From Paracoccus sp. IB05 (lineage in GTDB: Bacteria > Pseudomonadota > Alphaproteobacteria > Rhodobacterales > Rhodobacteraceae): a stretch of DNA of 40,820 nucleotides. This document shows, piece after piece, positions 31,597 to 40,820 of this stretch; position 1 is the stretch's first letter; the number at the start of each line of letters is the position of its first letter. Under the pieces are notes generated by a model, which saw only the letters and a program-made list of their open reading frames with translations, ran no database searches and had not been told where the DNA came from. The stretch covers positions 1-40,820 of the forward strand of contig NZ_JAEFCF010000049.1 in the NCBI RefSeq assembly GCF_016405985.1. Direction: 5' to 3'. Position numbers and translations under genes: made by a program.

Positions 31597-34011
31597 TCAG
31601 CTGCGGGGTTTGGCGCGCAGGGTCGGCTCGGCCTCGCGCGGGTCTTCGGGCCAGGGATGTTTCGGATAGTGCCCGCGCATATCCTTCCTGACATCGGCGT
31701 AAGACGAGGCCCAGAAACCCGGCAGATCCAGCGTCACCTGCACCGGACGGCGCGCGGGCGACAGAAGCGTGATGCGCAAGGGCAGCCGGTTCTGGCCGAC
31801 CACCGGATGGCGGGTGACGCCGAACATTTCCTGCAAACGGACCTCGATTGCGGGGTGGTCGCCGTCATAATCGATCGGCACTTCGCGCCCCAGCGGCGTG
31901 GTGAAATGGGCGGGCGCAAGGCGGTTCACCTCTGCCATGTGGTCCCAGCCGATATGGGCTTTCAGGGGCTCGATCAGATCCAGGGCCTTCAGGTCGGACA
32001 GGCTGCGGGCGCGGGTCAGATGCGGCAGGAGCCAGTCTTCGGCGCTGGCCAGCAGCGCCTCGTCGCTGACCTCGGACCAGGTCTCGTCACGGGTCAGGCG
32101 GATACGGGCGCGCAGCCGCGCGGCGGCGGGCGACCAGAACAGCCCGTTTTCGCGCAGACCGTCCAGCGCCGCGCGGGCGTGCGCTGCGGCGGGTGCGTCA
32201 GGCCAGGGGCGCTCAGCCAGCACCAGCGCGCCAAAGCGTTCGCGTTTCAGCGCCTGGACGCGGTTTTCACGGCTGTTCCAGATCACCTCATCGGACCAGG
32301 TGATCGCCGCGCCATGGATCCCGCGCAGCTCTTCCTCGCTGATGGCCAGCCCAAGGCGCAGCGTGGCCTCGCGCAGATCGCCGTCGAGGTCGGTGGCGAT
32401 GATCAGCCGTTCTTTGGCCAGCGCAGTGCCGGTCCCGACCACCGCGCCCTTGCCATTGGCGAGAAGGTAGCGCGGCGCGTCGCCTTTGCGCCGGAGCCCG
32501 ATGCGGTCAGGCCAGGCCAGCGCCGCCCATTGCGCGACCGAAAGCCCGGGGCGCGCGCCCTCAGGCACCGCGCGCGCGAGGCGCTTGGCCTCCTGGCGGA
32601 TCCGTTCGATCACGGCGCGACTGGCGGTTTCGGGCGGGCGTTCAATGGCCTTGAGGCGCAGCATCAGATCCGGCCCGGCGCCGCGCATCGGGTCGCGCTC
32701 TTCCGCCAGCGCCGCGAGACGCGCGGCATCGGGCCCGGCGATCATCAGCATATGGCTGAGGCGGGGATGCAGCGGCAGACGTGAGAGCCGGCGCCCGTGA
32801 GCGGTGATCGAGCCTGCCCCGTCCAGCGCCCCCAATGTGGTCAGAAGATCGCGCGCCTCGCGCAGGGTCGCGGGATGCGGCGGCGTGAGGAAAGGCAGAT
32901 CGTCCGATCCCCATTCCGCCAGTTCGAGCGCAAGCGCGGTCAGATCGGCCGAGGCGATCTCGGGGGGCGGAAAGGCCAGGAGCCCGCCTTCCTCGCCTTT
33001 GGTCCAGAGCCGGTAACAGAGGCCCGCCGCGACACGGCCGGCGCGGCCCCGGCGTTGTTCGGCCTCGGCGCGGGTGACGCGTTCGGTCACCAGACGCGAC
33101 ATGCCCGAGGCCGGGTCGAAGCGCGCGCGGCGCGCGCGGCCACCATCGACCACCACACGGATGTCGGGCAAAGTCAGCGAGGTTTCCGCAATCGAGGTCG
33201 CCAGCACCACACGCCTGAGACCTTCGACCGGCGCAAGTGCTGCGCGCTGCGCCTGGAAATCCATTGCGCCAAACAGCGGGCGCAGCGCGATCCCGGGGAT
33301 GTCTTTCAACCGGGTCTCAACCCGCCGGATCTCGCCTTCACCGGGCAGGAAGGCCAGCAGGCCGCCTTCGGTGGTTTCCTCCAGCGCCTGGGCGATCAGC
33401 CCGGCCATGGCGGCATCAAACCGCATCGAGGCATCAACCGGACGGGGCAGCCAGCGGGTCTCGACAGGCCAGGCGCGGCCCTCTGCCGTGATCATCGGCG
33501 CATCACTCATCAGGGCCGCAACCGGGCCCGCATCAAGTGTCGCCGACATGACCAGCAGCGCCAGATCGGGGCGCAATGCCGCACGGACTTCCAGCGCCAG
33601 CGCAAGGCCGAAATCAGCATGGAGCGAGCGTTCGTGGAATTCATCAAAGATGATGCAGGAAATCCCCGGCAGTTCGGGATCGGACTGGATCATCCGGGTC
33701 AGAATGCCCTCGGTCACCACCTCGATCCGGGTCGCGCCCGAGACCTTCGCCTCGCCCCGGATGCGGTAGCCGACGGTTTCGCCGATCTTTTCGCCAAGGG
33801 TTTCCGCCATGCGCTCGGCACTGGCGCGGGCGGCGAGGCGGCGCGGTTCCAGCATCAGGATTTTTTGCTGAAACAGCCCTGATTTCAGCAGGTCGAGCGG
33901 CACAAGCGTGGTCTTGCCGGCCCCTGGCGGAGCCTGCAGAACGGCACGCCCCGCGCGGGCCAGCGCCGCGCGCAGGTCAGGCAGAATCTCGGTGACGGGC
34001 AGTTGTTCCAT
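31597..34011 (-). CDS. hrpB: ATP-dependent helicase HrpB
   Basis: 804 residues, the length of HrpB. DExH superfamily-2 motifs: APPGAGKTTLVPLDLL (I, GAGKTT at 30-35), LEPRRLAARA (Ia), VTEGILTRM, DEFHERSL (II, DEFH at 123-126), SATLD (III, 156-160), and EQRRGRAGRVAAGLCYRLW (VI). The C-terminal HrpB domain ends in GFWASSYADVRKDMRGHYPK and HPWPEDPREAEPT. HrpB-type helicases are common in proteobacteria but their substrates are poorly known. The start is an ATG with only a weak ribosome site. It follows the dmm genes on the same strand by about 105 bases but is probably not functionally linked. Confidence 0.95.
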   Translation of the reverse strand: MEQLPVTEILPDLRAALARAGRAVLQAPPGAGKTTLVPLDLLKSGLFQQKILMLEPRRLAARASAERMAETLGEKIGETVGYRIRGEAKVSGATRIEVVTEGILTRMIQSDPELPGISCIIFDEFHERSLHADFGLALALEVRAALRPDLALLVMSATLDAGPVAALMSDAPMITAEGRAWPVETRWLPRPVDASMRFDAAMAGLIAQALEETTEGGLLAFLPGEGEIRRVETRLKDIPGIALRPLFGAMDFQAQRAALAPVEGLRRVVLATSIAETSLTLPDIRVVVDGGRARRARFDPASGMSRLVTERVTRAEAEQRRGRAGRVAAGLCYRLWTKGEEGGLLAFPPPEIASADLTALALELAEWGSDDLPFLTPPHPATLREARDLLTTLGALDGAGSITAHGRRLSRLPLHPRLSHMLMIAGPDAARLAALAEERDPMRGAGPDLMLRLKAIERPPETASRAVIERIRQEAKRLARAVPEGARPGLSVAQWAALAWPDRIGLRRKGDAPRYLLANGKGAVVGTGTALAKERLIIATDLDGDLREATLRLGLAISEEELRGIHGAAITWSDEVIWNSRENRVQALKRERFGALVLAERPWPDAPAAAHARAALDGLRENGLFWSPAAARLRARIRLTRDETWSEVSDEALLASAEDWLLPHLTRARSLSDLKALDLIEPLKAHIGWDHMAEVNRLAPAHFTTPLGREVPIDYDGDHPAIEVRLQEMFGVTRHPVVGQNRLPLRITLLSPARRPVQVTLDLPGFWASSYADVRKDMRGHYPKHPWPEDPREAEPTLRAKPRS

Positions 34012-34080: not shown

Positions 34081-34128
34081 TCAGTCTCCGGGTCAGTCTC
34101 CGGGTCAGTCTTCGGCTCAGTCTTCTGG
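34081..34128. repeat. 12-base tandem repeat across the dmmC stop codon
   Basis: Four units of period 12 begin at 34081, 34093, 34105 and 34117. The first two are identical (TCAGTCTCCGGG) and the next two vary (TCAGTCTTCGGC, TCAGTCTTCTGG). On the minus strand each unit repeats Asp-stop, so the true dmmC stop (34117-34119) is backed by three further in-frame stops. Confidence 0.9.
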
Positions 34129-35181
34129 CCACCAGCCGGGCGAGGTTGGCGCGCCATCATCATATTTCGCCAGATAGTCGAGGATCATCGGCTTGTTGCG
34201 GATGAAGCCCTTATAGGTCGCCAGCTCATCAGGCACGGTCTTGATCACCCGGTGGAAGCGACGCGCCCATTTCGGCTTGGTGACCAGATCATCCAGGCTG
34301 ATCAGGTAGCAGCGGATCGGGAAAACAATTGCATTCGAGCGCGGCAGCCGGATCAGCGTCTGCAATTCCACCCGCAGATGCTGGCGTTTGCCGATGGTCT
34401 CGGGCGTCATCGTGGTCTTTGACGGGCCCCATTTGTGGTAATTTTCGGGGCTGGTATCCAGCAGCGGATCGACCGTCATCGTCCAGTTGAACCGCCGCAC
34501 CGGCGCGCCATGCTGAAGCGCAAGCAGGAATTTCAGCGCCCGGTCAAAAATCCCCATCTCATGTGCCAGCGGCACCGGCGCATGCCATTCGTGGAAATTC
34601 ATCCCGATGTCGAAATCGAGGCTCCAGTCGGCCTGGCTGGTCACCATGCCGGCTTCGATCCAGAGATTGTCGTCGCGCTGATCCTGCAGCGTGAAATCGC
34701 CCTGGGCCTGGCGGGTGATATATTCAAACGGCCCCATCGGCAGGGTCGATTCGTCCAGGAAGGTGAACTTCTGGTCGATCCCCAGCGGACGGTTGATCCA
34801 GTGCCATTTGTTCCCGTCTTTCGTCAGCGAGAACCATTGCGGATAGTCTTCCGAGAATTTCTCCATGATCAGTTCAAGGAGATCCCAGCCCGCCAGGGTC
34901 ATATGTGGCAGCGACTGGCAGCGCAGCGGATCCTGTTCCAGCACCCGGGCGCGGTCACGCATTTCCGAGACGTAATGCTCGTCCACGTCGAAGCAATGTT
35001 CAAAGATCGAGCCGGGGCGACCTGAGACATGGGGCTCCATATTCACCGAATACATGTAGTCGTCTTCGGGGAAGGGGAAGGGGAAACGGTTCACCGCATG
35101 GGGCGTATTGCGATAGGTGTAATCGCCGAAAAAGCTCTCGTCGCGGAAGAACGGGTCTTTGAACGCATCATCAAGGCTCAT
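34117..35181 (-). CDS. dmmC: Haem-dependent oxidative N-demethylase alpha subunit (DUF3445), dimethylamine monooxygenase
   Basis: 354 residues matching DUF3445 proteins throughout: RFPFPFPEDDYMYSVNMEPH, LPHMTLAGWDLLELIMEKFS, WFSLTKDGNKWHWINRPLGI and NFHEWHAPVPLAHEMGIFDR, then RVELQTLIRLPRSNAIVFPI. In the haem-dependent oxidative N-demethylase of Pseudomonas this subunit carries haem in a PAS-like fold and is the site of amine oxidation. The neighbours (reductase, Cys-ribbon subunit, GcvT-like subunit) give the full gene set. It is preceded by AGGAGGATGCG and lies 10 bases after dmmB. The gene is named by the dmmDABC order; some papers use alpha for this subunit. Substrate (dimethylamine) is inferred from context, not shown. 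Confidence 0.9.
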   Translation of the reverse strand: MSLDDAFKDPFFRDESFFGDYTYRNTPHAVNRFPFPFPEDDYMYSVNMEPHVSGRPGSIFEHCFDVDEHYVSEMRDRARVLEQDPLRCQSLPHMTLAGWDLLELIMEKFSEDYPQWFSLTKDGNKWHWINRPLGIDQKFTFLDESTLPMGPFEYITRQAQGDFTLQDQRDDNLWIEAGMVTSQADWSLDFDIGMNFHEWHAPVPLAHEMGIFDRALKFLLALQHGAPVRRFNWTMTVDPLLDTSPENYHKWGPSKTTMTPETIGKRQHLRVELQTLIRLPRSNAIVFPIRCYLISLDDLVTKPKWARRFHRVIKTVPDELATYKGFIRNKPMILDYLAKYDDGAPTSPGWWPED

Positions 35182-35191
35182 CGCATCCTCC

Positions 35192-36154
35192 TCAGAGTTC
35201 GATCACCAGGCGCTCGCCTTTGAAACGCGAGACGCAGGGCATGATATGGGATTTCGCGGCTTTCTGTTCGTCAGAAAGCCAGTGATCATAATTCAGGATC
35301 TCGCCCTCGACGGCGTTGACCTTGCATTCGCATTGGCCACAGGCGCCGCCACGGCAGAGATAGGGGGCATCGACGCCGGCGGCTTCCAGCGCCTCGAGCA
35401 GTGACTGGGTCGGGCCGACATTGATGGTGATGTTTGACTTTGACAGCTCGACCTCAAACGCCTCGCCCACCGGGGGTGCCAGGAATTCTTCGGAATGGAG
35501 CGCGCCATTCGGCCAGCCCATCTTTTCAGCGGTCGAAAGCACCCAGCCGATCATCCCCTTGGGGCCGCAGACATAGAGATGCGTGCCAAGGGGCTGCGTT
35601 TTCAACAGGGTCGCGAGGTCGATCGCCTGTTTTTCCAGGTCGTAATAGGGATGAACCCGATCGCCATGACGGGCGGAGAGCTCTTTCATATAGGCGCCCA
35701 GCTCGCGGTCACGCATGGCGTAATGCAGCTCGAACTTATGGCCAAGCGCATCAAGCTGCGCCATCTGCGCGATGAAGGGGGTGATGCCGATACCGCCTGC
35801 GATCAGCAGATGTTTCTTCGCGCGCAGATCCAGCCCGAAGAGGTTCACCGGCTGCGAGATCACCATCTTCATGCCAGGCTTCACGCCAGAATGCATGAAC
35901 AAAGATCCGCCGCGCCCGGTCTCGTCGCGGCGCACGGAAATCTCATAGCCCGAGGTATCCGACGGGTCCGACATCAGCGAATAGGCGTTCAGACGGCGGG
36001 TGCCATTGTCATCCATCTCGACGACGGTATGGGCGCCGCCGGAAAAGCCCGGCATCAGCCCGCCATCTTCGCGCACGAAACGGAAGCGTTTGATCAGGCT
36101 GTTGACCTCGACCACTTCGGTCACGATCACGGGCAATCTGGTCGAGCCGCTCAT
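35192..36154 (-). CDS. dmmB: Dimethylamine monooxygenase reductase (phthalate dioxygenase reductase type)
   Basis: 320 residues. Flavin domain: RLNAYSLMSDPSDTSGYEIS (54-73, FMN binding). Nucleotide domain: LLIAGGIGITPFIAQM (116-131) and VCGPKGMIGWV. A C-terminal plant-type 2Fe-2S ferredoxin has C267, C272, C275 and C307 (LCRGGACGQCECKV...MPCVSR). It passes electrons from NAD(P)H to the haem subunit. The ATG at 36154 overlaps the dmmA stop in ATGA and the stop is 10 bases before dmmC. This domain order (FMN, NAD, 2Fe-2S) is that of phthalate dioxygenase reductase and VanB. Confidence 0.94.
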   Translation of the reverse strand: MSGSTRLPVIVTEVVEVNSLIKRFRFVREDGGLMPGFSGGAHTVVEMDDNGTRRLNAYSLMSDPSDTSGYEISVRRDETGRGGSLFMHSGVKPGMKMVISQPVNLFGLDLRAKKHLLIAGGIGITPFIAQMAQLDALGHKFELHYAMRDRELGAYMKELSARHGDRVHPYYDLEKQAIDLATLLKTQPLGTHLYVCGPKGMIGWVLSTAEKMGWPNGALHSEEFLAPPVGEAFEVELSKSNITINVGPTQSLLEALEAAGVDAPYLCRGGACGQCECKVNAVEGEILNYDHWLSDEQKAAKSHIMPCVSRFKGERLVIEL

Positions 36155-36759
36155 TTGAAACGCTCCTCGGAGGCGGGCACTTCGCCGGGGTCTTCGGCGT
36201 CGATACAGACGCCCTGGAAGGCAGCGAGGCGGCGCGAATAATGGTCGCGCACGAAGAGGTTAAGCCCGCAATGCGAACAGACAAACGGGTCAAGCGTCAC
36301 GTTTTCGGTGATGCCCTTGCAATGGACGCATTGCACGCGCCGCGCGAGCGAGCCGCGCTGCTCGGTCTGGAGCGCATCATGCGGCAGGCCGGCGGCGATC
36401 GCGTCGCGCTGGACCTGGCCGATCAGCCCCTCGGTGCCGGCGGCGTAAAGCTGCAGGCCCATATGCGCGTCGCCCAGCACCTTGCGGATGCGCTGCGAGG
36501 CCGAGGCATAGCTGGGCGCGGCGTGGAAGACCTGTGCCCCAAGCCCCGCGACCATCGTGGTCAGATCGGTGCCATTGGTGCCGGGAATATAGACAATATG
36601 GGTCGTGGATTTCAGATCCGGCGCGGCAGTCAGAAGCGCGGCCACAGCCTCGCCCCCTTCGCCATCGGCCACAATGAAATGCGAGGACCCCTGCCGTGGA
36701 ACAAGGCGGCCATAGAGCGGCCGGGATCTCATGATGTCATCTGCTTGCGTTTGCGACAT
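36151..36759 (-). CDS. dmmA: Dimethylamine monooxygenase small subunit DmmA-like, with zinc-ribbon-like cysteines
   Basis: 202 residues from the ATG at 36759 (MSQTQADDIMRSRPLYGRLV); an ATG at 36732 is an alternative and both have weak ribosome sites. The N-terminal part has an alpha/beta look (AVAALLTAAPDLKSTTHIVY, GLGAQVFHAAPSY). The C-terminal part has two CxxC pairs, VQCVHCKG (C144, C147) and FVCSHCG (C161, C164), a likely metal ribbon, then LNLFVRDHYSRRLAAFQGVC. It is always found with the haem and reductase subunits in the dmm cluster as I know it. It probably mediates electron transfer or assembly; the exact role is unknown to me. Confidence 0.85.
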   Translation of the reverse strand: MSQTQADDIMRSRPLYGRLVPRQGSSHFIVADGEGGEAVAALLTAAPDLKSTTHIVYIPGTNGTDLTTMVAGLGAQVFHAAPSYASASQRIRKVLGDAHMGLQLYAAGTEGLIGQVQRDAIAAGLPHDALQTEQRGSLARRVQCVHCKGITENVTLDPFVCSHCGLNLFVRDHYSRRLAAFQGVCIDAEDPGEVPASEERFK

Positions 36760-36870
36760 TCTTCTTCTTTCGCTCTGGCATGATGCACCCGCGAGGGCTG
36801 GCGCATCGGCTTCATGTCTCTTCCTCACCCCAAAGCCTCTGGCGGGCCTTCCTCCCTGGAGAGTGATGAA

Positions 36871-36902
36871 CCTCCCCGCCACAAAGATGTATGGCGGGGA
36901 GG
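36871..36902 (-). promoter_or_regulatory. Hairpin between dmmD and dmmA
   Basis: CCTCCCCGCC (36871-36880) and GGCGGGGAGG (36893-36902) form a perfect 10-bp stem with a 12-base loop, about 40 bases after the dmmD stop. On the minus strand it is followed by TTCATC, not a T-run. It may partly terminate or process the dmmD message before dmmABC. Confidence 0.7.
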
Positions 36903-36924
36903 GGAACAGACAGGGCTGAACCTG

Positions 36925-36956
36925 ATCAGCCTTTGACGGTATCAGCCTTTGACGGT
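36925..36956. repeat. 16-base tandem duplication at the dmmD stop
   Basis: ATCAGCCTTTGACGGT occurs twice in direct succession (36925-36940 and 36941-36956). It repeats the last codons of dmmD (T-V-K-G-stop on the minus strand), with the stop in the second copy as read on the plus strand. The duplicate lies just past the stop. Confidence 0.9.
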
Positions 36957-38081
36957 GCGGCGCTTTTTCTCGACATCGTAGAACGGCATCGAATGGCTGG
37001 TCGCCGCGATCTCGCCATGGGTCGCGCAGTTCACCACAAGTTTGGTGTCGTTATTGGCATATTCAACCGGCAGTCGCGCAATTGCGATGGTCCAGTTGTT
37101 CAGCGGCGAATGCATCGCCTGGGTCACGACACCCACTTTCTTGCCGTCTTTCATGACCGGCGCGCCATTGCCCGGGACATTGTTGCCCTCAAGCTTCAGG
37201 CCCCAGATCTTGAAGCGCTCTTTGCCCTTCAGGCGGTAATGCTCTTCCGCACCGCGGAAGCCGATCTTGCCCGGCGAGACGGTGAAATCGAGGCCAAGCT
37301 CCCACAGCGTGTCGCCGCCCGGCTCGTTGTCGAAGGGGTTATTCTCCGACGTGTCGAACGGGTAGAACAGCAGGTAGCTTTCGACCCGCAGCATATCGAG
37401 CGTGGTGAAGCGGCAGGGCATGATGCCCATGTCAGCGCCTTCTTCGAGGATGCGGTCCCAGACCATGCCGGCATCCTGACCGCGCACGAAGATCTCATAG
37501 CCGCGCTCGCCGGTATAGCCGGTGCGCGAGATCATGACGGGCTTGCCGAAAAGCGAGGTCTGCATATGGCTGAAATAGTTCAGGTCACGGATGCCGGGCA
37601 CGTGCTTTTGCAGGTAATCAACCGCCAGCGGGCCCTGCAGCGACAGGTCATGCAGGTTGTCGTCGAAGCGGATATCGACATCGCGGCCGGTGGTGTACAT
37701 GGCCAGCTGCTCATGGCCGTTGCCGGTGCCATGGACGACCATGAAATTGTTCGGCCCGGTGCGGTAGATCACGCAGTCATCGACGAATTTGCCGCCATCG
37801 GACAGCATGGTCGCGTAGGACGAGCGGCCCGGCATGATCTTTTCGACGTTGCGCGTGGTGGCGCGTTCGATCACGTGGCTGGCGGCCGGTCCGTTCAGAT
37901 AGACCTTTTTCAGGCCCGAGACGTCCATCAGGCCGGCTTTGGTGCGGATGGCCATATATTCGGCATCTGCGTCACCGACCTTGTAGGACCAGGCCGTGCC
38001 CATCCCGCTCCAGTCTTCCATATCCGAGCCGAGCGCGCGGTGGCGATCACCGAGTGCAGAGAATCTCCAGGAATTGGTCAT
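36942..38081 (-). CDS. dmmD: GcvT-like tetrahydrofolate-binding protein of the dimethylamine cluster
   Basis: 379 residues of the aminomethyltransferase (GcvT) fold: YMAIRTKAGLMDVSGLKKVY, LNGPAASHVIERATTRNVEK, SSYATMLSDGGKFVDDCVIY, LSLQGPLAVDYLQKHV, SRTGYTGERGYEIFV (folate-site Glu in this motif) and the C-terminal barrel LKLEGNNVPGNGAP. In the Pseudomonas N-demethylase a GcvT-like delta subunit binds tetrahydrofolate, which fits capture of released formaldehyde as methylene-THF. The start has GGAGG just upstream. It is the first gene of the dmm block and is separated from dmmA by 182 bases and a hairpin. Confidence 0.9.
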   Translation of the reverse strand: MTNSWRFSALGDRHRALGSDMEDWSGMGTAWSYKVGDADAEYMAIRTKAGLMDVSGLKKVYLNGPAASHVIERATTRNVEKIMPGRSSYATMLSDGGKFVDDCVIYRTGPNNFMVVHGTGNGHEQLAMYTTGRDVDIRFDDNLHDLSLQGPLAVDYLQKHVPGIRDLNYFSHMQTSLFGKPVMISRTGYTGERGYEIFVRGQDAGMVWDRILEEGADMGIMPCRFTTLDMLRVESYLLFYPFDTSENNPFDNEPGGDTLWELGLDFTVSPGKIGFRGAEEHYRLKGKERFKIWGLKLEGNNVPGNGAPVMKDGKKVGVVTQAMHSPLNNWTIAIARLPVEYANNDTKLVVNCATHGEIAATSHSMPFYDVEKKRRTVKG

Positions 38082-38146
38082 GATTCCTCCCGTCGTTTTC
38101 TTAATGAATGCTGCGACTCATTCTGGAAGGTCGGGATCGGAAAAGC

Positions 38147-38158
38147 AACATTCATGTT
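38147..38158. promoter_or_regulatory. Palindrome upstream of dmmD
   Basis: AACATTCATGTT is a 12-base dyad (5-bp arms, TC centre) about 65 bases upstream of dmmD, in an AT-rich patch (38141-38175). It could be an operator. No clear promoter hexamers are seen around it. Confidence 0.35.
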
Positions 38159-38266
38159 AAAAAAGGTTTCCTGACAGAGAACATTTTCCTGGCCCTCATT
38201 CTGTCTCCGGGCGCGGCGCGCGGAACTGCCCGATCCTTGTGCGATCCCTGGATGCGACATGGCAAA

Positions 38267-38291
38267 GCCGGCGGGAGGATCTCCCGCCGGC
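38267..38291 (-). terminator. Terminator after the Amt-like gene
   Basis: GCCGGCGGGAG (38267-38277), loop GAT, CTCCCGCCGGC (38281-38291): a perfect 11-bp stem. On the minus strand it is followed by TTTGCC, a short T-run, 28 bases after the transporter stop. Confidence 0.8.
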
Positions 38292-38318
38292 TTGCAGTCA
38301 GGGACGCGAAGGCCCGGC

Positions 38319-39659
38319 TTATTTGCCGTTGTCGAGCCCCCAGCGAAGCTTGTCGAGCCCTTCGGCCTGGTCCTCTTCGGGCACACGCAGCCCAGTGGTC
38401 GCCTTGAGCACCACCGACAGGATGAGCCCGGTGATGATGCCGGCGCCAAGGCAAAGCGCAAAGCCCGCAAGCTGCATCAACAGGCTGATATGGCCATGCT
38501 GATAGGCAAAGGGCCCTTCGGTCACGCCCCAATACCCGCCGCGCGGCGTGCCGGCCTTGAAGAGGCCAATCATCACAAGGCCGTAGAAGCCGCAGCCGAT
38601 GAAGAGGGGGAACAGCTTGTGCTCGTCGATCTGACGTTTCGAGGTGAAATCATAGACCAGCCAGCAGGTCAGCGGGGCGCCAAGTGCCACGAAGAACATC
38701 TGCCAGGGCAGCCAGACGTCAAATCCGGGCGCCCCCGCGACATAGCCGCCGAGCGGTCCGAACAGGAGGTAGATATAGTTCTTCGTCTTATACGAGATCG
38801 CCGCGCCGGTGATGGCGCCGCCGGCCCAGGCCAGCGCATAGTTGTTGAGGGCAATCCCCAGCGAGGTATCGGCCATGGTGACCGAAATCGCGCGGGCTTC
38901 AGGGTCGACAAAGAACAGGCAGGAGAGAATCACCATCGGCAGGCCCGAGAAGATGGTGATGATGCCGGTGGCCGCGAGGCCGATCGACGGTGCCTGATAG
39001 GAGGGCACTTTGGGATGGGGCGCGAACATGCCGGGGCGTTTGCCGAGCTGCGGCACCAGCACCATCGCGATCCCCGTCGGGAAGATATAGACGAAGCCGA
39101 TCCCGAAGAAGTCATGGAAGCCGGCATTGGTCAGCGGCCCGACCGAGCCCCAGACCGCCCAGCTCAGGATCGAGGATACGACCGTTGCCACCACGCAGGT
39201 GATGTAAAAGGCCGAGGCCTTCATCCGTTCAGACACCGCGAAATGCAGCAGCACGTTCACGATCCCCGCAAAGGTGGCGAGGAAGAAGATGAAGATCTGG
39301 AATGTGTTCAGCCCGGGGAAGACCGCCGGATCGACATTTTGCGCATGCGCATTCGACAGCGCACCGAAGAACCACCAGTCCTTCAGCGAATCCATCATCG
39401 TGGCGCCGCCCATGATGTAATATTGCCCGGCCCAGAAGCCGAAGCCGACCGCGAAATAGGTCGCGAATCCAATAAAAAACCCCACCATTTTCTCGATGGT
39501 GGAGTTGTAGAGATTGGCACTTCGCGTTGTGCCGGCGTCGATCATCAACAGCCCGGCGACAACCATCAGGGCCCCCACCGTGCCAGACGCATAGACGAGG
39601 TTCTGGACTAGCTGGCTGAGGGTTACCTGTTCCGCGAAGAACGTGGCAGTTTCTTCCAT
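38319..39659 (-). CDS. amt: Ammonium transporter-like protein (Amt family) without the twin histidines
   Basis: 446 residues from the ATG at 39659, with AGGGAG seven bases upstream. About eleven membrane segments. The C-terminal TTGLRVPEEDQAEGLDKLRW matches the Amt regulatory tail (GLRVPEEQEREGLD in E. coli AmtB), so the family is clear. Aligned by eye to E. coli AmtB, the segment DFFGIGFVYIFPTG (183-196) lines up with DFAGGTVVHINAAI, keeping the conserved Asp but placing Tyr191 at pore His168; the region PLFIGCGFYGLVMIGLF puts Phe353 at His318. It is in the methylamine cluster with dmm and mgs genes, so it may carry methylated amines or ammonium, or act in sensing. No glnK is adjacent. Confidence 0.85.
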   Translation of the reverse strand: MEETATFFAEQVTLSQLVQNLVYASGTVGALMVVAGLLMIDAGTTRSANLYNSTIEKMVGFFIGFATYFAVGFGFWAGQYYIMGGATMMDSLKDWWFFGALSNAHAQNVDPAVFPGLNTFQIFIFFLATFAGIVNVLLHFAVSERMKASAFYITCVVATVVSSILSWAVWGSVGPLTNAGFHDFFGIGFVYIFPTGIAMVLVPQLGKRPGMFAPHPKVPSYQAPSIGLAATGIITIFSGLPMVILSCLFFVDPEARAISVTMADTSLGIALNNYALAWAGGAITGAAISYKTKNYIYLLFGPLGGYVAGAPGFDVWLPWQMFFVALGAPLTCWLVYDFTSKRQIDEHKLFPLFIGCGFYGLVMIGLFKAGTPRGGYWGVTEGPFAYQHGHISLLMQLAGFALCLGAGIITGLILSVVLKATTGLRVPEEDQAEGLDKLRWGLDNGK

Positions 39660-40357
39660 ATACGCACTCCCTGTTGTGGGTCCGGCTCCTCTCATGGGGC
39701 CGGTTTCTGGTCTCTCCGGCATGGTGCCGGCCGTTCCGGTCTTTTGGAGTTCCGCGTGCAGCAGGGCTGCGTCCCGGAAGCGCCGGATCATTCCGCCCGC
39801 CAGCCGGTCCTTGCAGCCGGTCTTCCCGGCTTTCTTTCATGCTGTGAGGGCTGAGTTTCCCGCAGCAGAAAAGCGCCAACCGAGAAAAGTACCGTTCCAA
39901 TGGACCAGAGGGCAGACCACTTGCCGCGCCAGATCATACCGCTTGCCGATCTGGTCTGGTGTGCAGGGCTACATTGCGAGCAAGCGAAATGAAAATCAAC
40001 CATCCAGGAAAAAACTATTCCCATAGGGAAGACTGCCCCTGTGAGGTCCCGTTTAACTGACTGATGGGGCGATAAAAAATCTGGATAGGAGAGGCGAAGA
40101 TATCAGGTTTTTCGGCTGATTCCTGGCCCAAGAGCCGGCTTCGCTGCCGGGTGGCCGACCCCGCCGGCCAGGCGGACCATGCCAAAGGGTCAGGTTTGGC
40201 GCTGTACCAGATGCCTCAGACGGCTGAACCGCAGCAGGGAACCGGGAATCGCTGCCTGCCTGTAAAAATATTCCCCTCATTCAACTTTATTTCTTGTGTG
40301 TTTGTTTGTCTGGTTGTTAGGATTGGTTTGCGCCAGAGCTAAAAGGGAGCCGCTTCG
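39660..40357. other. 698-base divergent control region between amt and mgsA
   Basis: No protein gene is supported in this stretch. It holds TTGC-GA-GCAA (39974-39983) and TTCCC-ATA-GGGAA (40018-40030), and a T/G-rich run on the plus strand (about 40292-40331) just ahead of the mgsA ribosome site AAAGGGAG. It must contain the promoters for both arms of the methylamine cluster, but I cannot place their -35/-10 elements with confidence. Confidence 0.6.
40018..40030. promoter_or_regulatory. Candidate LysR-type operator (T-N11-A dyad)
   Basis: TTCCC-ATA-GGGAA is a perfect 5-bp dyad with a 3-base centre that fits the T-N11-A box of LysR-type regulators. It lies between the divergent amt/dmm and mgsA genes, about 360 bases from amt and 330 from mgsA. 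No regulator gene is in view, so the assignment is speculative. Confidence 0.35.
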
Positions 40358-40820
40358 ATGTGCGGGATTGTTGGACTTTTTCTGAAGGACCGTTCGCTGG
40401 AGCCCGATCTGGGCCGTTTGCTGACGGATATGCTGATCACGATGACGGATCGCGGTCCTGATTCTGCGGGGATCGCGATTTACGGCGATGATGCAGGGGG
40501 CAAGCTGACGGTTCAGTCTGCCTTTGCGGATCGCGATTTTGCGACGCTTGAGGCGGATCTCGGGGCGGCGATCGGGGCGAAGGTTTCGCTTTCGCGCAAG
40601 GACAGCCATGCGATCCTGACGCTTGCGGCGGATAAGATCGCGCCTGCGCGGGCGGCACTTGCGGCTCTGCGGCCGGATGTGCGGGTGATGAGCGCAGGCG
40701 ATTCGATCGAGATCTACAAAGAGACCGGGTTGCCGAAGGATGTGGCGGCGCGCTTTGGCGTCTCCAAAATGTCGGGCCGGCACGGGATCGGCCATACGCG
40801 GATGGCGACCGAATCGGCGG
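40358..40820 (+). CDS. mgsA: N-methylglutamate synthase subunit A, class II glutamine amidotransferase (partial)
   Basis: The ATG at 40358 (AAAGGGAG upstream) is followed at once by Cys2, giving MCGIVGLFLKDRSLEPDLGR and then TMTDRGPDSAGIAIYGDD, the N-terminal nucleophile amidotransferase signature of the GlxB/MgsA group rather than of full GltB or PurF. A later HGIGHTRMATES segment continues the fold. 154 residues are seen before the window ends. With MgsB and MgsC it makes N-methylglutamate from glutamylmethylamide-linked methylamine metabolism. The dmm neighbours favour MgsA over the related GlxB, but the downstream genes are out of view, so this is context-based. Confidence 0.85.
   Translation, partial: MCGIVGLFLKDRSLEPDLGRLLTDMLITMTDRGPDSAGIAIYGDDAGGKLTVQSAFADRDFATLEADLGAAIGAKVSLSRKDSHAILTLAADKIAPARAALAALRPDVRVMSAGDSIEIYKETGLPKDVAARFGVSKMSGRHGIGHTRMATESA

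Follow-up and report, generated by a model that had tools for sequence, protein, structure and literature searches.

Here we describe an unusual Amt-family gene and the methylated-amine genes around it at one end of a 40,820-nucleotide stretch of Paracoccus sp. IB05 (contig NZ_JAEFCF010000049.1; the whole stretch is called the window below). The window is our contig C52 from its first to its last base, and the contig end falls inside the gene that we name mgsA. Pfam and NCBI model matches agree with the original prediction for the minus strand, where dmmD, dmmA, dmmB and dmmC follow one another in that order with a PF00909 gene in front of them (Table 1). DmmC is a haem alpha subunit of the haem-dependent oxidative N-demethylase (HODM) family, its residues 15-343 of 354 matching the solved enzyme 5lte, and it is encoded in one operon with DmmA and the flavin/2Fe-2S protein DmmB. 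For DmmD, the best solved relative is the trimethylamine N-oxide (TMAO) demethylase 9q5a/9q59. The Amt most likely begins at the ATG at 39659, and position 39791 in the list of open reading frames (ORFs) appears too early: Met is found at the former position in 45 of 51 aligned rows, and AGGGAGTGC just 5' of it is kept in five Pseudogemmobacter sequences, with the window counted in by its closeness to P. bohemicus (locus L004). This start sets the limits of the divergent gap in Table 1. On the plus strand, the mgsA fragment begins with MCGIVG, has no Pfam match and hits GlmS models only weakly; we name it after the full-length gene of L004, which has 84% identical DNA and matches GATase_6 and GATase_7.

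Table 1. Features at the methylated-amine locus of the window
Feature	Coordinates	Strand	Evidence
hrpB, after dmmC	31597-34011		
dmmC, haem alpha subunit of dimethylamine (DMA) monooxygenase	34117..35181	-	HODM_asu-like PF11927, E 3.7e-70; 486.7 bits to solved HODM 5lte
dmmB, flavin/2Fe-2S reductase subunit	35192..36154	-	FAD_binding_6, NAD_binding_1, Fer2
dmmA, zinc-ribbon-like subunit, GTG start uncertain	36151..36882	-	DmmA-like_N, DmmA-like_C; NF041259 above cut-off
dmmD, GcvT-like auxiliary protein	36942..38081	-	GCV_T, GCV_T_C
Amt-family gene of the clade without the twin-His pair (Tyr191, Phe353 counted from ATG 39659)	38319..39659	-	PF00909, E 2.8e-32
Divergent gap amt-mgsA, 698 bp	39660..40357	.	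Five-species alignment, short conserved patches only
Putative edge of duplicated gmaS-mgsCBA block	40279..40820	+	40279-40333 equals the end of contig C73
mgsA, first 154 residues, truncated by the contig end	40358..40820	+	84% identical DNA in P. bohemicus L004

The Amt had been called odd in the original prediction with no reason given, and a reason can now be found in its pore. The protein scores 112.4 bits against PF00909 (cut-off 23.2) and 121.9 bits against the NCBI curated amt model TIGR00836, which is below the cut-off of 343.3. Relative to E. coli AmtB, the canonical bacterial Amt, it has Tyr191 in place of the first pore histidine (H168) and Phe353 in place of the second (H318), and alignments with E. 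coli AmtB, A. fulgidus Amt-1, a sensor Amt and the second-tier Amt type discussed below agree on both assignments. Relatives of the protein were collected by matching six exact peptide patterns of its own sequence, a procedure that favours near relatives; none of the patterns covers Tyr191 or Phe353. The same Tyr and Phe occupy the twin-His positions in 55 of 55 clade rows (the count excludes a fragment of L052, removed ahead of the alignment, and three Amts with less than 60% identity), and the histidine pair characteristic of Amt ammonium channels is consequently missing throughout. In the main alignment, which consists of the window, 42 of the 54 loci found and two second-tier rows, the equivalents of F107, W148 and D160 are kept in 43/43 clade rows. 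By contrast, the equivalent of F215 is Val in 41 rows, including the window, and Ile in 2, so that the Phe gate formed by F107 and F215 is incomplete, and W212 is replaced by Leu. At the S219 position the clade probably has Cys, canonical rows being gapped there in one alignment. All 15 control Amts (12 canonical, 3 second-tier) retain F215 and the two histidines.

Despite these replacements, the fold is that of an Amt. The predicted structure (predicted local distance difference test 86.8, predicted TM-score 0.89) is closest to AmtB and other Amts, and the best 50 of 652 fold matches are all Amt, Mep or Rh. A tree of 17 of the 43 clade rows, 3 second-tier rows and 12 canonical loci out of 32 matches recovers the odd clade as monophyletic (support 100/100) on a separating branch of 3.65 changes per column. 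Identity is 62-97% within the clade and only about 22-28% to other Amts, canonical ones included. We found no intermediates either among plasmid sequences (28 records), or among 150 genomes of the family at E up to 1e-60 (5 matches, namely the window genome and four at 67-69%), or among 397 genomes of the phylum at E up to 1e-35 (1 match, the window's own). The tail differs as well: the HGE..Y or GMEAYPEF motif seen in the 12 canonical rows is absent from the 17 clade tails compared and from the three second-tier rows. Judged from alignments and tree, this is a paralogue of the ammonium channels that has become specialised and belongs to a sharply bounded clade. It is also under purifying selection: in the comparison with P. 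bohemicus, the nonsynonymous rate (dN) is 0.020, the synonymous rate (dS) 0.40 and dN/dS about 0.05, a lower ratio than for dmmB, dmmC and dmmD. The clade also offers a natural test of the role of the twin histidines: strong purifying selection maintains an Amt that lacks the two histidines as well as the inner gate Phe.

Two other departures from the canonical type are worth comparing. Fungal Mep1 and Mep3 also deviate naturally from the twin-His pair (PMC9040831), but there the first His is Glu, whereas in the window clade both positions are aromatic. The second-tier Amt, a second divergent type of the family, lies beside mgs/dmm genes (L068:4213-5586, L014:8167-9555, L048:11526-12890). Like the odd Amt it occurs in methylamine clusters and is far from canonical (182-191 bits to PF00909); unlike the odd Amt it keeps both histidines and F215 and forms a separate branch. 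Both forms are carried by R. pomeroyi and by the genomes of L014 and L048.

To place the clade in its genomic context, we counted pathway proteins in 50 genomes carrying the odd Amt, reached through 50 of the 54 loci (L011, L040, L051 and L056 were left out). GmaS is above its curated cut-off in 49/50 of these genomes compared to 44/150 family genomes, and Tmm in 46/50, with one more in part, compared to 35/150. Among the 150 family genomes, the five with the odd Amt have Tmm in all cases (p 5.5e-4) and GmaS in four (p 0.026; kinship ignored in both values), the fifth being the window genome with its assembly gap. On a local scale, tmm, dmmA, dmmC, mgsC or gmaS is found in the examined flank of 31 of the 54 loci. 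One locus, L049 (Gammaproteobacteria MAG F7, genome G044), combines the odd Amt and two GmaS above cut-off with no Tmm match, and therefore the clade is not tied to Tmm alone. Some names among the carriers (Aminobacter, Paracoccus sulfuroxidans, Paracoccus sp. DMF-8) hint at growth on DMA or dimethylformamide.

The genes around the Amt are almost certainly part of the known aerobic pathway for trimethylamine (TMA), DMA and monomethylamine (MMA), which has been shown in relatives and to which homology and gene order assign the locus. DmmABC would demethylate DMA to MMA with DmmD as a GcvT-like helper, and MgsABC together with GmaS would take MMA onward via N-methylglutamate. The first step is published: R. 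pomeroyi DmmABC turns DMA into MMA in E. coli, and dmmABC alone restores growth of R. pomeroyi on DMA, not on TMA or TMAO (PMC5520151). In P. aminophilus all four dmm mutants fail on DMA (PMC4543880). As for the suggestion that DmmD traps formaldehyde on folate, a role in methylene-folate formation is already a published hypothesis (PMC4543880). These two papers give different answers as to whether DMA growth requires dmmD. The dmm genes, their dmmDABC order and the pathway in R. pomeroyi DSS-3, which also has gmaS-mgsABC, and in P. aminophilus JCM 7686 are those assigned to the window (PMC5520151, PMC4543880). The Amt is what differs. In the R. pomeroyi strain examined, a twin-His amt with mgsABC and gmaS behind it lies divergently to dmmDABC (L068), and the odd Amt is located elsewhere, beside a GntR gene and tmm (L069), whereas in the window the odd Amt heads dmmDABC with mgsA divergent. 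An amt gene is mentioned as a recurrent neighbour or drawn in figures whose legends leave the Amt type unspecified (PMC5520151, PMC7574528). The dmm/mgs pathway, amt as its neighbour and the master regulator TmaR are all published, and as a module the locus is ordinary.

As for the substrate of the odd Amt, the reading that we put forward, and to which we give about an even chance, is that it does not conduct ammonium in the manner of AmtB and admits methylated amines, most likely DMA and TMA and possibly MMA, to feed the pathway. The narrower proposal of a dedicated di- and trimethylamine permease, built on the ammonium-channel fold with the histidine pair replaced by an aromatic pore, is more tentative. 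DMA and TMA are almost wholly protonated at neutral pH, and scarce amines in this form would need a carrier. The kept outer site could hold a cation, the smaller gate residue would leave space for methyl groups, and the aromatic residues may pass the methylated cation or its neutral form. There may even be a division of labour, for example in R. pomeroyi, with the odd form beside tmm/dmm serving TMA and DMA and the twin-His second form beside mgs/gmaS serving MMA. Our search of the literature on amine transporters returned no settled TMA or DMA carrier in these bacteria, although a TMA transporter has reportedly been described in Myroides. A rare Amt clade keeping company with TMA and DMA genes is a direct candidate for such a carrier. 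A search of the literature, made largely without subscription journals, revealed no group of Amts that lacks the twin histidines and is associated with methylated amines.

Several observations weigh against amine transport by the odd Amt. Removal of both histidines from AmtB abolishes in vivo transport of methylamine and ammonia (PMC3647058) or makes the protein channel-like (PMC10433425, PMC9040831), so that the odd Amt must be a re-made pore and not the result of simple loss; moreover, our view of this pore comes from alignments only. In 23 of the 54 loci none of tmm, dmm, mgsC and gmaS lies in the examined flank, and 9 of these 23 have one neighbour family in common, whose L016 member is phosphoribosylanthranilate (PRA) isomerase, a tryptophan gene. 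GmaS is missing from genome G037 and a full Tmm from G015, G035, G037 and G044, all of them reached through loci in metagenome-assembled genomes (MAGs). The carrier genomes are also related, being mostly Rhodobacterales, and the counts are not independent. The neighbour family shared by the nine loci looks like a reflection of place and not of function. Some other common context for the 23 loci was sought in 20 ORFs from eight of them (L008, L016, L024, L025, L027, L042, L049, L053); these belong to mixed families (PRA isomerase, trpB, gyrase A, transposases, sulfotransferase and carbamoyltransferase among others), and part of the shared families was identified.

Other roles for the odd Amt have to be considered against the same evidence. 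It might still carry ammonium, or leak it out, or pass MMA and ammonium alike, with the residue changes simply tolerated. The Amt fold and outer site are indeed kept, and ammonium freed by methylamine catabolism is released by Rhodobacteraceae (PMC7574528). However, no clade row retains either histidine or F215, all three being replaced together, and a canonical Amt is already present in 11/11 genomes checked (the second-tier type in 5/11). In AmtB, double-His variants lose ammonia-dependent growth (PMC3647058) or turn channel-like (PMC9040831), and the F215A variant could not transport ammonium (PMC10433425). We regard ammonium transport as unlikely. A sensor, or transceptor, that would not conduct the amine but bind it at the kept outer site and signal its availability to the pathway seems to us similarly improbable. 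Bulky Tyr and Phe in the middle of the pore could close it, and Amt-type receptors exist, including our best profile matches 6eu6 and 8qj3, as does an example of a pore narrowed by bulky residues, that of KsAmt5 (PMC10433425). Yet there is no fused signalling domain in the clade, tails ending 10 to about 35 residues past GLD in 17 rows, and the signal for the regulator TmaR is a product beyond MMA rather than the amines themselves (PMC13390433). Finally, the loss of signature residues could indicate a decaying paralogue without function, but the low dN/dS, the invariance of the replacements and the full-length frames in most rows make this highly improbable. Between these alternatives, admission of methylated amines is the reading that we prefer.

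The other arm of the locus, mgsA, is best understood through relatives, since the genes expected to the right of 40820 (mgsB, mgsC and gmaS) would lie beyond the contig end. Reading towards the dmm genes, P. bohemicus (L004) and P. faecipullorum (L007) carry tmm, a gene for a substrate-binding protein, GntR, gmaS, mgsC, mgsB and mgsA, followed divergently by amt, dmmD, A, B and C; the L004 gmaS reaches 655.5 bits (cut-off 469.6). This amt/mgsA divergence, the order to be looked for in relatives, is found in these 2 of the 54 loci, and two more (L005, L006) end at a contig border before that point. In the assembly of the window genome itself, a search for gmaS gave a best score of 243.1 bits, below the cut-off, with other glutamine-synthetase-like proteins only, and a search for mgsC gave only glutamate-synthase-like matches. 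Thus, the predicted right-hand genes are present in relatives and missing from the window's own assembly. The contig ends account for this. Contig C85 (4000 bp, tmm to GntR), 88% identical to L004, ends in the 3' end of gmaS; its terminal 55 bases are also the terminal bases of contig C35, and the terminal 55 bases of contig C73 are those of the window at 40279-40333. In other words, four contig ends of the window genome abut the missing block in two pairs sharing 55 identical bases each. P. bohemicus holds the corresponding gmaS-mgsCBA block twice (L004:5053-9517 and L062:6815-11279, 99.98% identical over 4465 bp), and the sequences flanking its second copy match the ends of C35 and C73 at 83-84% identity. 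We infer that the block is a repeat dropped from the window genome assembly, and that gmaS and mgsC are missing because of this gap. Taken alone, their absence would speak against the name MgsA; given the L004 DNA search and the contig ends, it can be put down to a repeat at which the assembly breaks off.

These matches indicate that mgsB, mgsC, gmaS, the GntR gene and tmm probably come after mgsA, and the gene order in L004, L007 and C85 would make the right-hand amidotransferase MgsA of the N-methylglutamate route, as the prediction of a divergently starting MgsA-type protein had it. That the gene belongs to some other amidotransferase system could be argued from the mere 154 residues in the window and the missing gmaS and mgsC, but with the paired contig ends and a gmaS-mgsCBA block at the corresponding place in P. 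bohemicus we consider this exceedingly improbable.

The two-place arrangement is not confined to P. bohemicus. In P. hezensis, gmaS ends occur next to each of the two sets of flanks and share 98.7% identity with one another and about 87% with P. bohemicus; in P. humi the block forms a contig of its own, overlapping the amt contig by 99 identical bases; P. faecipullorum has a single gmaS above cut-off. The duplication looks older than these species, and together with the near-identity of copies within a genome this points to probable gene conversion. Two locations of the gmaS-mgsCBA block per genome, seen directly in P. bohemicus, indicated by contig ends for P. hezensis and the window species, and likely in P. 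humi, would make a case of concerted evolution (L063, L085, L086, L087).

The proposal that amt and mgsA share one control region, through which one regulator could switch both arms, found no support in one alignment of five species: the gap is long and poorly conserved there, and the second mgs copy has a different upstream neighbour. That neighbour is a LysR-type regulator gene (L062:11379-12305) directly upstream of mgsA. In R. pomeroyi, TmaR activates tdm, dmm, gmaS-mgs and mgd and binds each promoter separately (PMC13390433). A TmaR-like AraC-type gene and an MgdC-like gene come after dmmC in L007 (16442-17416 and following) and L006 (7357-8334). In R. pomeroyi, the AraC-type regulator encoded between dmm and mgd, which we consider to be TmaR on account of this location and its domains, shares 52% identity with the AraC-type protein of these loci. 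The gene following dmmC in the window, in L004 and in L005 is hrpB.

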